From positions 558,001-622,000 of the forward strand of contig NZ_OU015584.1 in assembly GCF_907165195.1 (NCBI RefSeq): a DNA stretch of 64,000 nucleotides. Direction: 5' to 3'. The stretch is from Parvicella tangerina (lineage in GTDB: Bacteria; Bacteroidota; Bacteroidia; Flavobacteriales_D; Parvicellaceae). Position 1 is the stretch's first letter, and each line of letters opens with the position of its first letter. The position numbers and the translations under genes were made by a program. Below are positions 5,447 to 9,911 of the stretch, piece after piece. Under the pieces are notes generated by a model. That model ran no database searches and was not told the DNA's origin. It saw nothing but the letters and a program-made list of their open reading frames with translations.

Positions 5447-6151
5447 ATGAGTAAAAAAGAACGAAGCTTAATTTCTAAGATATTATTGTTTGCCGGAATG
5501 TTTGGATTTCCGGCTTTTTTTATTCTCTTCTTCGCGTTAGGGAAGCAGAATTTTGAGTACTTGCTTTATTACGGAGATCATAAGGTAGTCACCAAGACCG
5601 TAGACGGTGAAGAGATTCAAGATACGATTTACTATAAAGTACCTCAATTCAAATTTGATACTCCAGATGGAGGAATGATTACGAACAGTGACTTTAAAGA
5701 TAAGATCCTAGTGGTTAATTTTATTCAGATGGACTGTCCCAATAAGTGTAACCTCGATTTCTTTGCTTTTAAGCGGTTTGTTGCGGATGAGGTGATTGCT
5801 AATGACGGTTTTAAAGATGTAGAGATCATATCATGTGTATTGGACTCTGGTGTTACCAATGAAAGAATTTTGGAGTTCATCGACTTTCACGAAATCAATA
5901 CGGATCGGTGGCACATTGTTACTGGGAATATGGGACAGATCTACGATACGGATATGAAGACACAGAACCCATGGCAAGCGGAAGATGTAGATTATGGGTA
6001 CCCAAAAGTGGCTCATATAATGACGTTGCTTCTCGATCAAGAAAGACATATTAGAGGAAAGTATATTACCCCGCAAACAAGCGAGAATAAAAGAGTAACG
6101 AAAGAAATTAGTATCCTTTTACGTGAACAAGAAGAAAATGGCGGTGTTTAG
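5447..6151 (+). CDS. SCO1/SenC family copper chaperone for cytochrome oxidase (first copy)
   Basis: A 234-residue thioredoxin-fold protein anchored by one N-terminal helix (about residues 11-32), with the rest periplasmic. SCO proteins deliver copper to, or reduce, the CuA site of oxidase subunit II. The copper-binding CxxxC is visible as DCPNKCNLDFF near residue 97, and the distal histidine as PKVAHIMTLL near 190. The C-terminal 14 bases overlap the next SCO gene, so the two are translationally coupled. Two tandem SCO paralogues in one operon suggests division of labour (for example, metal transfer versus thiol reduction); that is inference. Confidence 0.9.
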   Translation: MSKKERSLISKILLFAGMFGFPAFFILFFALGKQNFEYLLYYGDHKVVTKTVDGEEIQDTIYYKVPQFKFDTPDGGMITNSDFKDKILVVNFIQMDCPNKCNLDFFAFKRFVADEVIANDGFKDVEIISCVLDSGVTNERILEFIDFHEINTDRWHIVTGNMGQIYDTDMKTQNPWQAEDVDYGYPKVAHIMTLLLDQERHIRGKYITPQTSENKRVTKEISILLREQEENGGV

Positions 6152-6806
6152 ATTGATTGGCTTTTTCCTTGCTTGCTTCATTTTTCTTCACAGTTGTAAA
6201 CAAGGTGATTCAGAGGCAAGTTCTTCGGAAGAGAAGGAAGCAAAGACATCTTTGCCAATTTTTGGTGTTAAAGAGTTTATTCCTGGAGTGGATTCGGACA
6301 CGGTTTATCACACAGTAGAGGACTGGAAATTTATCAACCAGGATAGTCTTTATGTGAGTAAATCTGACTACCTCGGAAAGCCTTACATTGCATATTTCTT
6401 CTTCTCTCACTGCCCCAAGATTTGTCCCAAGATCAACTCAAATATGAAGTACTTTCAAGAACAGACATCAGGGCTTGAATACAATGTTATCGCACATACT
6501 GTTGATCCAGAAAGAGATTCAGTGGAGCGGCTAAAATTTTATGGAGATGAGTACGGTTTTGATTATGCTAACTATAACTTTGTAACTGGAAACAAAGAAG
6601 AGATTTACACATTAGGTGTAAAAAGTTACCTTGTTCCCAATCAGGAAGATGCCTTGGCACCTGGTGGGTTTCTGCATTCGGAAAAACTGATCCTGATCGA
6701 TAGCAAAGGAAGGATTAGAGGTTATTATGAAGGAACGGAGAAAGATGAAGTGGATTTATTGATTGAGGATTTGAAATTATTGATTAAACTTGAAGAGAAT
6801 GAGTGA
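6138..6806 (+). CDS. SCO1/SenC family lipoprotein (second copy)
   Basis: About 222 residues from the ATG at 6138; a GTG at 6123 in the same frame is less likely because the ATG gives a proper lipoprotein signal (MAVFRLIGFFLACFIFLHSC, lipobox Cys20). The CxxxC copper motif reads HCPKICPKINSN and the distal His lies in GGFLHSEKLILID. It is predicted to sit on the periplasmic face of a membrane as a copper chaperone or thiol-disulfide reductase for the CuA centre. It overlaps the upstream SCO gene and the downstream DUF420 gene (ATG at 6799 inside its last codons), indicating a tightly packed operon. Confidence 0.9.
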   Translation: MAVFRLIGFFLACFIFLHSCKQGDSEASSSEEKEAKTSLPIFGVKEFIPGVDSDTVYHTVEDWKFINQDSLYVSKSDYLGKPYIAYFFFSHCPKICPKINSNMKYFQEQTSGLEYNVIAHTVDPERDSVERLKFYGDEYGFDYANYNFVTGNKEEIYTLGVKSYLVPNQEDALAPGGFLHSEKLILIDSKGRIRGYYEGTEKDEVDLLIEDLKLLIKLEENE

Positions 6807-7344
6807 CGCAGTAGCAAGAGATGAACAAAAATTTAAGCTGTGGATTACGGTTTTGTCTATTGCAATTCCTGTTGCTGTTGCTGTTCTTTTTGGTGTTAAC
6901 CTGCGTGAACTTGGCCTCAACGTTAAGCCATTAACTTTTTTGCCTCCGATTTATGCAAGCATTAATGGATTGACAGCAGTATTGCTAGTCGGGGCTATTC
7001 TTGCGATTAAAAAGGGAAATCGAAAGCTTCACGAACGCTTAATCAAGTTTGCATTAGTGTGTTCAAGTTTGTTTTTGGTGATGTATGTAGCCTACCACAT
7101 GACATCTGACAGTACTCCCTATGGCGGAGAAGGTGCTATGAGGTATGTTTATTTTTTTATTTTAATTAGCCATATTGTGCTGTCTGTAGTTATTATTCCA
7201 TTCGTTTTGGTAACCTACACTAGAGCGTTATTAGGAAAGTTTAATGCACATAAGAAAATTGCTCGAATCGCTTTCCCATTGTGGTTATATGTTGCCATTA
7301 CTGGAGTAGTAGTGTACTTAATGATTAGTCCATATTATGTTTAG
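6799..7344 (+). CDS. DUF420 family membrane protein, cytochrome oxidase assembly
   Basis: About 181 residues from the ATG at 6799, which overlaps the SCO stop (a TTG at 6790 is in frame but less likely). Five hydrophobic helices with the family's histidines: GNRKLHERLIKFAL, VMYVAYHMTSD and ILISHIVLSVVIIP, then FNAHKKIARIAFPLWLY. DUF420 proteins (related to Bacillus CtaM) are found in oxidase operons and are implicated in assembly of aa3 oxidase, probably via heme or CuB handling. The 3' end overlaps the next small gene by 8 bases. Confidence 0.85.
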   Translation: MSDAVARDEQKFKLWITVLSIAIPVAVAVLFGVNLRELGLNVKPLTFLPPIYASINGLTAVLLVGAILAIKKGNRKLHERLIKFALVCSSLFLVMYVAYHMTSDSTPYGGEGAMRYVYFFILISHIVLSVVIIPFVLVTYTRALLGKFNAHKKIARIAFPLWLYVAITGVVVYLMISPYYV

Positions 7345-7603
7345 AAAAGTACTTCAGATATTTATTTTAGTATTGGGCTTGGTCATGTTTAATGCGCAAG
7401 CTCTAGCTCAAGGATGCGTAAACTGTAGGACTCAAATAGAAAGTAGTCAACAGAACGAATTAACAGTAGGTAATGGAATTAATGCCGGTATTACAATTCT
7501 TATGATCTCCCCATACATCCTTTTGGCGGTTGCTTTTTACTTTATTTTTGGCAAAAGGGTGAAGTACTTCTTTAAAGACCTGATCGGGCTTTGGAAAAAA
7601 TGA
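7337..7603 (+). CDS. Small membrane protein with periplasmic CxxC at end of oxidase operon
   Basis: An 88-residue protein with a signal peptide (cleavage probably after ALAQ, residue 25), then a short periplasmic segment GCVNCRTQIESSQQ with a CxxC pair, and one C-terminal helix (about residues 48-72) with a basic tail. Proteins of this kind (Cys-x-x-Cys after a signal sequence, then a helix) are recurrent at the end of Bacteroidota oxidase operons. The function is not known to me; copper or redox handling is an inference from the CxxC and the location. Translation is coupled to the DUF420 gene by an 8-base overlap. Confidence 0.8.
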   Translation: MFRKVLQIFILVLGLVMFNAQALAQGCVNCRTQIESSQQNELTVGNGINAGITILMISPYILLAVAFYFIFGKRVKYFFKDLIGLWKK

Positions 7604-9011: not shown

Positions 9012-9061
9012 ATTCTTTTTGCGACTTTTTTTTACTTTCTCGTTAGTATAGGAAAAGTGTT

Positions 9062-9202
9062 ATGAAAAATACAGAAAAAGTAAGTAAAGGAAATTGCACA
9101 TGTACAAATTGTGAGTGCACGAAATGTGATTGTAAGACGTGTTCTCCAACAACCTGTCCGTGTGAAAAGTGTGAGTGCTCCAAATGCAGTTGCTGCAATT
9201 AA
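9062..9202 (+). CDS. Metallothionein-like 46-residue protein with 14 cysteines
   Basis: ATG at 9062 and TAA at 9200-9202. After ten polar residues the protein is two near-repeats of seven cysteines each: Cys 12, 14, 17, 19, 22, 24, 27, then an SPTT linker, then Cys 32, 34, 37, 39, 42, 44, 45. Spacing follows CxCxx with a period of five, with Lys/Glu/Thr between. No signal peptide. This is what a cytoplasmic metal-thiolate (Cu, Zn, Cd) protein looks like, but I do not recognise it as any named prokaryotic metallothionein family. The DNA of the two halves is similar (TGTGAGTGC...AAATG occurs in both), pointing to internal duplication. It lies 93 bases before a Cys-tailed ECF sigma gene on the same strand. 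An antisense open frame over it is judged non-coding. Confidence 0.72.
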   Translation: MKNTEKVSKGNCTCTNCECTKCDCKTCSPTTCPCEKCECSKCSCCN

Positions 9203-9295
9203 TGAATTAGTTGTTTGCAAAGCCAAGCAGAATTGAATAAATTGATGGTCAGCTCAGAACTTGTTTGATGCGTTAGTTGAGCTAGACGGATTCAA

Positions 9296-9856
9296 ATGAC
9301 ACAAAAAAATAACCATACCATAGCAAGAAGCTGGGATGAATTCTCGGAACAACTCCTTGGTTTTATCATTTCAAGAATTCACCACAAGGAAGATGCGGAA
9401 GATATTTTGCAAGAGGTCTATTTGAAGTCGATCAACAATATTGATAAACTGCAAGAAGACAGTAATTTGAATGCATGGCTCTACACGGTAACAAGAAATG
9501 CAATCAATGATTATTTTAGAAATAAGCAAAAGAATAAGGAAACGATTACTCAAGACATATTTACAGAAGACACTGATGCGTTGAATATCAAAGATAGTTT
9601 TTGCTGTCTGGAACCGCACATTAATGAATTACCTGGCAAGTATAAGGAGGTAATACTCTTGTCTGAAATAGAAGGGCTCAAACACCAAGAGATAGCAGAT
9701 AAGCTAAAATTATCGCTTTCCGCAATTAAATCTAGAGTGGTTAGAGGAAGAGAAATGCTCAAAGAAAAGTTTGTGACCTGTTGTAAGTACCGCATTGATG
9801 AGAATGGTAAGCTGGCGGGTGAGCCAGACTGTCAAAGACCTGAATGCAATCACTAG
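9296..9856 (+). CDS. ECF sigma factor, SigZ-like, with cysteine-rich C-terminus
   Basis: A 186-residue protein with sigma70 region 2 (about residues 12-78; DAEDILQEVYLKSI and NAWLYTVTRNAINDYFR) and region 4 (about 108-158; LPGKYKEVILLSEIEG, then the helix-turn-helix HQEIADKLKLSLSAIKSRV). The C-terminal 28 residues carry Cys162, Cys163, Cys179, Cys184 and a final His186, and the linker between regions has Cys103-Cys104. This tail resembles SigZ proteins and recalls the metal-sensing cysteine domains of CorE-type sigma factors. No anti-sigma gene is adjacent, which fits direct sensing by the tail. The neighbouring metallothionein-like gene is a plausible target (inference). Confidence 0.9.
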   Translation: MTQKNNHTIARSWDEFSEQLLGFIISRIHHKEDAEDILQEVYLKSINNIDKLQEDSNLNAWLYTVTRNAINDYFRNKQKNKETITQDIFTEDTDALNIKDSFCCLEPHINELPGKYKEVILLSEIEGLKHQEIADKLKLSLSAIKSRVVRGREMLKEKFVTCCKYRIDENGKLAGEPDCQRPECNH

Positions 9857-9882: not shown

Positions 9883-9911
9883 AAAAAGGTCATCGTTTCG
9901 ATGACCTTTTT
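9883..9911. terminator. Bidirectional intrinsic terminator
   Basis: A perfect 13-bp stem (9883-9895 with 9899-9911) around a TTT loop, with an A-tract on the left and a T-tract on the right, lying between convergent genes (sigma factor and MORN protein). It can serve both strands. Confidence 0.85.

Follow-up and report, generated by a model that had tools for sequence, protein, structure and literature searches.

A cysteine-rich mini-protein gene and a SigZ-type sigma factor gene form a conserved two-gene module in Bacteroidota

In the 64,000-nucleotide stretch of Parvicella tangerina DNA that was analysed (the window), a gene for a small protein, almost one-third of whose residues are cysteine, lies directly 5′ of the gene for an ECF sigma factor of the SigZ type. 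We find that the mini-protein and SigZ form a real, conserved two-gene module that recurs in dozens of Bacteroidota. Judged from the sequences compared here, our best reading of this module, which we hold to be likely, is that the mini-protein serves as a thiol buffer akin to the metallothioneins and is controlled by a SigZ that senses metal(loid)s and regulates its own gene. The locus comprises the following features.

9020–9046, forward strand: weak copy of the promoter motif of SigZ loci, found by pattern match in the organism's own genome.
9062–9202, forward strand: gene for a 46-residue, 14-Cys metallothionein-like (putative) mini-protein, called from its open reading frame, homologues and codon-position pattern.
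9203–9295, forward strand: 93-nt spacer between the mini-protein gene and sigZ, read from the sequence.
9296–9856, forward strand: gene for a SigZ-type ECF sigma factor of 186 residues (TIGR02959; Pfam regions 2 and 4).
9602–9607, forward strand: codons of the linker residues Cys103 and Cys104, from cysteine conservation in the SigZ alignment.
9779–9853, forward strand: C-terminal tail with Cys162, Cys163, Cys179 and Cys184, from the same alignment.
9883–9911, no strand assigned: 13-bp hairpin with a T-run, a probable terminator, from a terminator scan.

The mini-protein carries its cysteines at positions 12, 14, 17, 19, 22, 24 and 27 and again at 32, 34, 37, 39, 42, 44 and 45, two blocks of seven separated by SPTT, exactly as an earlier, sequence-only reading of this DNA had described them; the same reading called the blocks near-identical, which is generous, since they are alike but match at only 8 of 13 compared residues. 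The CxC/CxxC spacing was equalled by 330 of 10,000 shuffles of the same composition and is therefore only mildly unusual, so that the case for the frame lies in its conservation and not in the single sequence. Comparison of 23 homologues of 37 residues (164 pairs, which share ancestry and are not independent) gave 677, 603 and 2408 differences at codon positions 1, 2 and 3, and 1612 synonymous against 608 non-synonymous single-base codon changes, a substitution pattern that shows the mini-frame to be under protein-level selection. A chance frame is ruled out by this codon pattern and by homologues adjoining sigZ in dozens of genomes. Among 47 homologues, 35 have exactly 14 cysteines and 45 contain CxCxxCxC, while histidine occurs in none and an aromatic residue in two. 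Bacterial metallothioneins are small and Cys-rich, with few or no aromatic residues and with CxC/CxxC motifs. The mini-protein, with 14 cysteines in 46 residues, shares these traits and has no match to a curated metallothionein profile. Neither the window protein (Pfam and NCBIfam, E up to 1) nor eight of its homologues (Pfam, E up to 1) matched a family, and a profile of the eight found nothing in the PDB at E up to 10; the earlier statement that the protein belongs to no named family stands for Pfam and NCBIfam. By sequence, it belongs to a coherent 14-Cys family of Bacteroidota, as yet unnamed and putatively metallothionein-like. At 37–38%, the GC content of the two genes differs little from the 39% of the window.

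The pairing was followed from both of its genes. Within the organism's own genome and 99 relatives, the mini-protein was found in 2 of 100, the second (G048) belonging to another family of the order and carrying its copy 76 nt 5′ of its SigZ gene; a class-level search of 395 genomes found it in six. When named genomes were scanned by means of an eight-homologue alignment, 37 loci emerged (six of them in genomes also met under G handles), mostly from Flavobacteriaceae, with Balneolaceae, Portibacter and Roseivirga in addition. SigZ lies directly 3′ on the same strand in 34 of these 37 loci, the two frames being up to 254 nt apart or, when the longest frames are taken, overlapping by as much as 32 nt, so that the small frame is kept beside the sigma gene in relatives, on which the sequence-only reading had staked its gene call. 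The three exceptions are a locus in which the mini-protein gene lies near the locus end (L138), Robiginitalea aurantiaca (L153) and a member of the Pirellulaceae (L154); the last, having neither SigZ nor a Cys-rich mini-frame as defined below, was judged a stray match.

Starting from the sigma factor, we detected TIGR02959 at E ≤ 1e-30 at 53 places in 52 genomes out of 395 from the phylum, 14 of these genomes being over the curated cut-off; the same model finds SigZ in Bacillus subtilis, our search control. All 52 places besides the window were examined, and the sigma frame was found in 51, the remaining one (L109) being cut by a contig end. A Cys-rich mini-frame, defined as at most 80 residues with at least seven cysteines and at least 22% cysteine within 200 nt of sigZ, is present in 16 of the 51 loci; away from sigZ, the same composition and length limits returned one frame in the remaining 430 kb of SigZ loci, and the loci of other ECF factors returned none (0/25; 85.6 kb). 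No neighbour family other than SigZ occurs in more than 5 of 46 mini-bearing loci (complete frames of at least 90 residues within about 3 kb), which rules out that the pair is part of a larger conserved operon.

The mini-protein can also exist alone, because SigZ at E ≤ 1e-30 is absent from three of the six mini-bearing genomes of the class-level search (G541, G694 and G620). Minis of the 14-Cys type in SigZ-less genomes are those at L161, L162 and L163, the L162 gene having, by eye, a peroxiredoxin-like gene and a ZIP-type transporter-like gene as neighbours. The congeners G001–G003 have neither mini-protein nor SigZ, G001 and G003 being only 82% and 74% complete; a comparison with the empty site reached as far as a G002 contig whose end follows shortly behind the transporter gene, a gene for which neither G001 nor G003 gave a match. 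At two close SigZ loci, L116 and L118 (G056 and G068), a 3′ mini is intact, by the mini-frame definition above, in the former and diverges after its first codons in the latter.

Against the SigZ equivalog TIGR02959, the window sigma factor clears the cut-off (174.5 versus 168.65 bits), but it falls short of that of a second NCBI SigZ model, NF007215 (176.5 versus 212 bits). Its predicted structure (mean pLDDT 83, pTM 0.48) matches the fold of known ECF sigma factors. The Cys162, Cys163, Cys179, Cys184 and His186 listed in the sequence-only reading are all present, and we found a further pair that it did not mention, Cys103–Cys104, in the linker that joins regions 2 and 4. Cysteine is kept at positions 103, 104, 162, 163, 179 and 184 in 36, 41, 42, 42, 42 and 41, respectively, of 42 SigZs with a 5′ mini-protein, and at 104, 162, 163, 179 and 184 in 15, 29, 30, 16 and 32 of 36 SigZs without one. 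The tail cysteines are therefore common to most SigZs sampled, the window's included, whereas SigZs without a mini-protein rarely have the linker pair.

This arrangement resembles that of CorE and CorE2 of Myxococcus xanthus, metal-dependent ECF sigma factors with linker cysteines and a Cys-rich C-terminal extension; in CorE, the linker CXC and the C-terminal Cys-rich domain are both essential (PMC8999054 and PMC3107203, excerpts). A Cys-rich extension of the CorE kind is found in the window SigZ, with its cysteines kept in 41–42 of 42 partners. The likeness has limits, as the window linker reads CC at 103–104 instead of CXC and the tail is short, with four cysteines; also, SigZ is paired with a Cys-rich mini-protein, unlike CorE, which activates a multicopper oxidase and a copper ATPase (PMC10141476, excerpts). 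On their aligned sequences, the partner SigZs with linker cysteines and a CC..C..C tail are CorE-like in layout, with a linker motif that is not the same.

In a tree of 76 SigZs, from which seven divergent rows were left out, presence of the mini-protein needs six changes of state, and the window SigZ sits on a long branch with the SigZ of G048 as its nearest relative. Linker cysteines and mini-protein are associated at the level of clades only, with three independent contrasts on supported branches, and we dropped the idea of their correlated evolution because these contrasts are too few. Two placements in this tree suggest transfer: Roseivirga falls with Psychroflexus tropicus on a starred branch, and Portibacter (G255) joins Algibacter at 94/78. 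Near the pair, L135 has a tyrosine recombinase (over cut-off) and L134 a mobilization-protein-like gene (below cut-off); a search of plasmid records with one mini-partnered SigZ, that of L134, gave no match.

Tight gene pairing and conserved cysteines in both proteins could also mean that the mini-protein acts on SigZ directly, either as a metal-dependent anti-sigma factor or as a metal donor to the sigma tail, and not as a bulk buffer. We consider this unlikely, as minis occur without SigZ in the three genomes named above, and as the mini classes that pair with SigZ have from 8 to 14 cysteines and very different lengths, unlike what a fixed protein interface would lead one to expect.

Evidence on what a buffer and its sigma factor might handle comes from sister loci. 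Genes of the arsenic or heavy-metal type were found in 23 of the 37 SigZ loci without a mini-protein (tblastn, E ≤ 1e-8, with queries taken from the same loci or from L142), comprising ArsI/CadI-like genes in 14, ArsM in 4, Acr3 in 4, ArsO-like flavoproteins in 4, and ArsC and ArsR in 1 each, some loci being counted in several classes. The same search found none in 25 loci of other ECF factors, a control set smaller in DNA; in two overlapping sets of mini-bearing loci, it placed such genes near 3 of 18 and 3 of 37, respectively. Profile checks put ArsI/CadI over the cut-off in three of four sequences tested, Acr3 (L075) over it and ArsM over it in one of two partial sequences, with the ArsO-like protein far below. 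The arsenic genes (ArsM, ArsI/CadI, Acr3, ArsO-like) thus resemble the mini-protein gene in adjoining SigZ, some of them behind the same motif, but at most loci they replace the mini-protein rather than accompany it; no arsenic gene adjoins the window pair. In L142 of Zeaxanthinibacter, the mini-protein gene and sigZ come after genes for an ArsR-type regulator, a protein without a name, an ArsC-like protein that stays below its cut-off and an Acr3 that exceeds its own. Because of L142 and the arsenic-type genes at SigZ loci, arsenite or another thiol-binding metal(loid) is our best guess for the ligand, and the earlier guess of Cu, Zn or Cd should be extended to take in arsenite and metal(loid)s that bind thiols in a similar way. 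At L081, L108, L111 and L117 we also observed a flavoprotein monooxygenase near SigZ that is weakly ArsO-like, the L117 copy having a Cys-rich end.

Thiol sensors can respond to oxidants, and the unit might accordingly sense oxidative or electrophile stress via its thiols in place of metal, with the peroxiredoxin-like gene seen by eye near one SigZ-less mini (L162) as a point in favour; the recurrence of ArsM, ArsI/CadI and Acr3 genes at sister SigZ loci makes this quite improbable.

A shared promoter motif, TGYRTCYTTTT followed after 10–11 nt by NGTCT, stands within 150 nt before 39 of 47 minis and before none of 197 further genes from these loci. Since the motif was derived from the counted sites, the contrast with the control genes, and not the raw count, is the evidence. 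The motif also precedes arsM in L064, L065 and L097 and an ArsI/CadI gene in L075; Acr3 adjoins motif-bearing genes in L075 and L104, all five of these being SigZ loci without a mini-protein, and at some loci with a 3′ mini each of the two genes has its own copy. Across 31 chosen SigZ genomes, the pattern gave 33 matches in 23 genomes, against 16 for the reversed pattern; 26 of them are no more than 1.5 kb from sigZ and one is about 5 kb off, while the other 6 are elsewhere, each inside an opposite-strand frame. A wide SigZ regulon is accordingly not seen with the pattern used, and, as far as the pattern tells, SigZ seems mainly to serve its own locus, because most matches are near sigZ. In the organism's own genome, the pattern, widened to include 9020–9046, matched twice, as did the reversed control. 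Scored with training that left the window out, this site was equalled by 19 of 197 control genes and 641 of 2,000 shuffles, and it was dropped as stand-alone evidence for want of statistical support; it rests on its position and on the analogous site 116 nt before the G048 mini-protein gene. At L083 and L091, a SigZ-type motif was seen before a secreted-looking protein of ~315 residues behind sigZ.

The gap from the mini-protein gene to the sigma ATG at 9296 is exactly 93 nt, as had been reported, and predicted RNA structure in 9160–9300 is nothing unusual against shuffles (z-score 0.01), so that an attenuator in the window spacer, beyond what shuffles give, was discarded. Poly-Cys leader peptides occur in mycobacteria, and in 42 of 47 aligned pairs (window included) the small frame immediately precedes sigZ, yet that it is itself such a leader, on whose Cys codons ribosomes stall at Cys shortage or upon metal binding to the nascent chain, thereby tuning sigZ, is very doubtful, given the 3′ position of the mini in the other five pairs, the three genomes with minis and no SigZ, the ordinary spacer, and a conserved number and spacing of cysteines together with a codon-position bias that point to selection on the protein. 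The hairpin at 9883–9911 probably ends the unit; it was called on the reverse strand only, and its use on the forward strand would follow from its symmetric sequence.

We therefore return to the buffer under a metal(loid)-sensing SigZ. The pair of metal buffer and metal-sensing sigma factor proposed in the sequence-only reading is partly supported, as it would fit the composition of the mini-protein, the conserved sigma cysteines and the metal(loid) genes at sister loci. SigZ would carry its own thiol sensor, made up of the linker Cys pair and the C-terminal CC..C..C tail. A thiol-binding metal(loid), arsenite-like or else Cd, Zn, Cu or Hg, would enter the cell and bind these cysteines, upon which metal-bound SigZ would use the promoter before the unit (TGYRTC-TTTT ... 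NGTCTA), giving more SigZ and more of the 14-Cys mini-protein from what may be a common transcript. The mini-protein would hold the metal in thiolate clusters and, in taking it up, could switch SigZ off again by feedback; for the window, this scheme supposes that the weak promoter copy works. More tentatively, and as something possible rather than probable, the unit may be a near single-target, self-limiting circuit without a separate anti-sigma factor, in which SigZ senses arsenite-like thiol-binding metal(loid)s by its linker and tail cysteines, acts in many Bacteroidota chiefly on a single metallothionein family of two 7-Cys clusters from its own unit, and is switched off when this buffer strips it of the metal.

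Such a circuit would place a metallothionein under the positive control of a metal-sensing sigma factor, where sister loci have arsenic enzymes. SmtA and MymT, the latter a copper-protective metallothionein, are controlled by the repressors SmtB and RicR, respectively (PMC10141476, excerpts), whereas the present family is tied to SigZ by gene order and a shared motif. The mini-protein is like SmtA and MymT in being small, Cys-rich and near a putative metal-type regulator, and differs in its all-Cys CxC/CxxC make-up without histidine and in matching no Pfam or NCBIfam profile. The module adds a variant to known kinds, a metallothionein-like buffer and a CorE-like sigma factor, and no new category. 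In the open-access literature, we found no paper on SigZ and metallothionein (earlier mention elsewhere is possible), none on a SigZ-arsenic link by title, nothing for Bacteroidetes with 'sigma factor SigZ', and no title on the mini-SigZ pairing among the matches listed; SigZ with ECF sigma factor and cysteine gave a sole match by title, on B. subtilis EF-P. The literature searched gives no signal for SigZ, and the pairing makes what SigZ senses a two-gene question, with the sister loci linking SigZ to arsenic and heavy-metal defence.

The window pair is flanked on the 5′ side by a gene for a short-chain fatty acid transporter and on the 3′ side by one for a MORN-repeat protein, which runs on the opposite strand; a scan of seven proteins of the window revealed none recognisable as an anti-sigma factor or a metal-resistance protein. 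Further upstream, at 7337–7603, in a putative cytochrome-oxidase assembly cluster and beside DUF420, lies a gene for an 88-residue protein that has a membrane stretch and, close to its N-terminal third, a CxxC; this protein has no significant Pfam or NCBIfam family match and is 49% identical to a protein of the congener G002 whose gene also adjoins DUF420. Two frames that look, by eye, like SCO-type copper chaperones occupy 5447–6806, 2.3–3.6 kb before the mini-protein gene.
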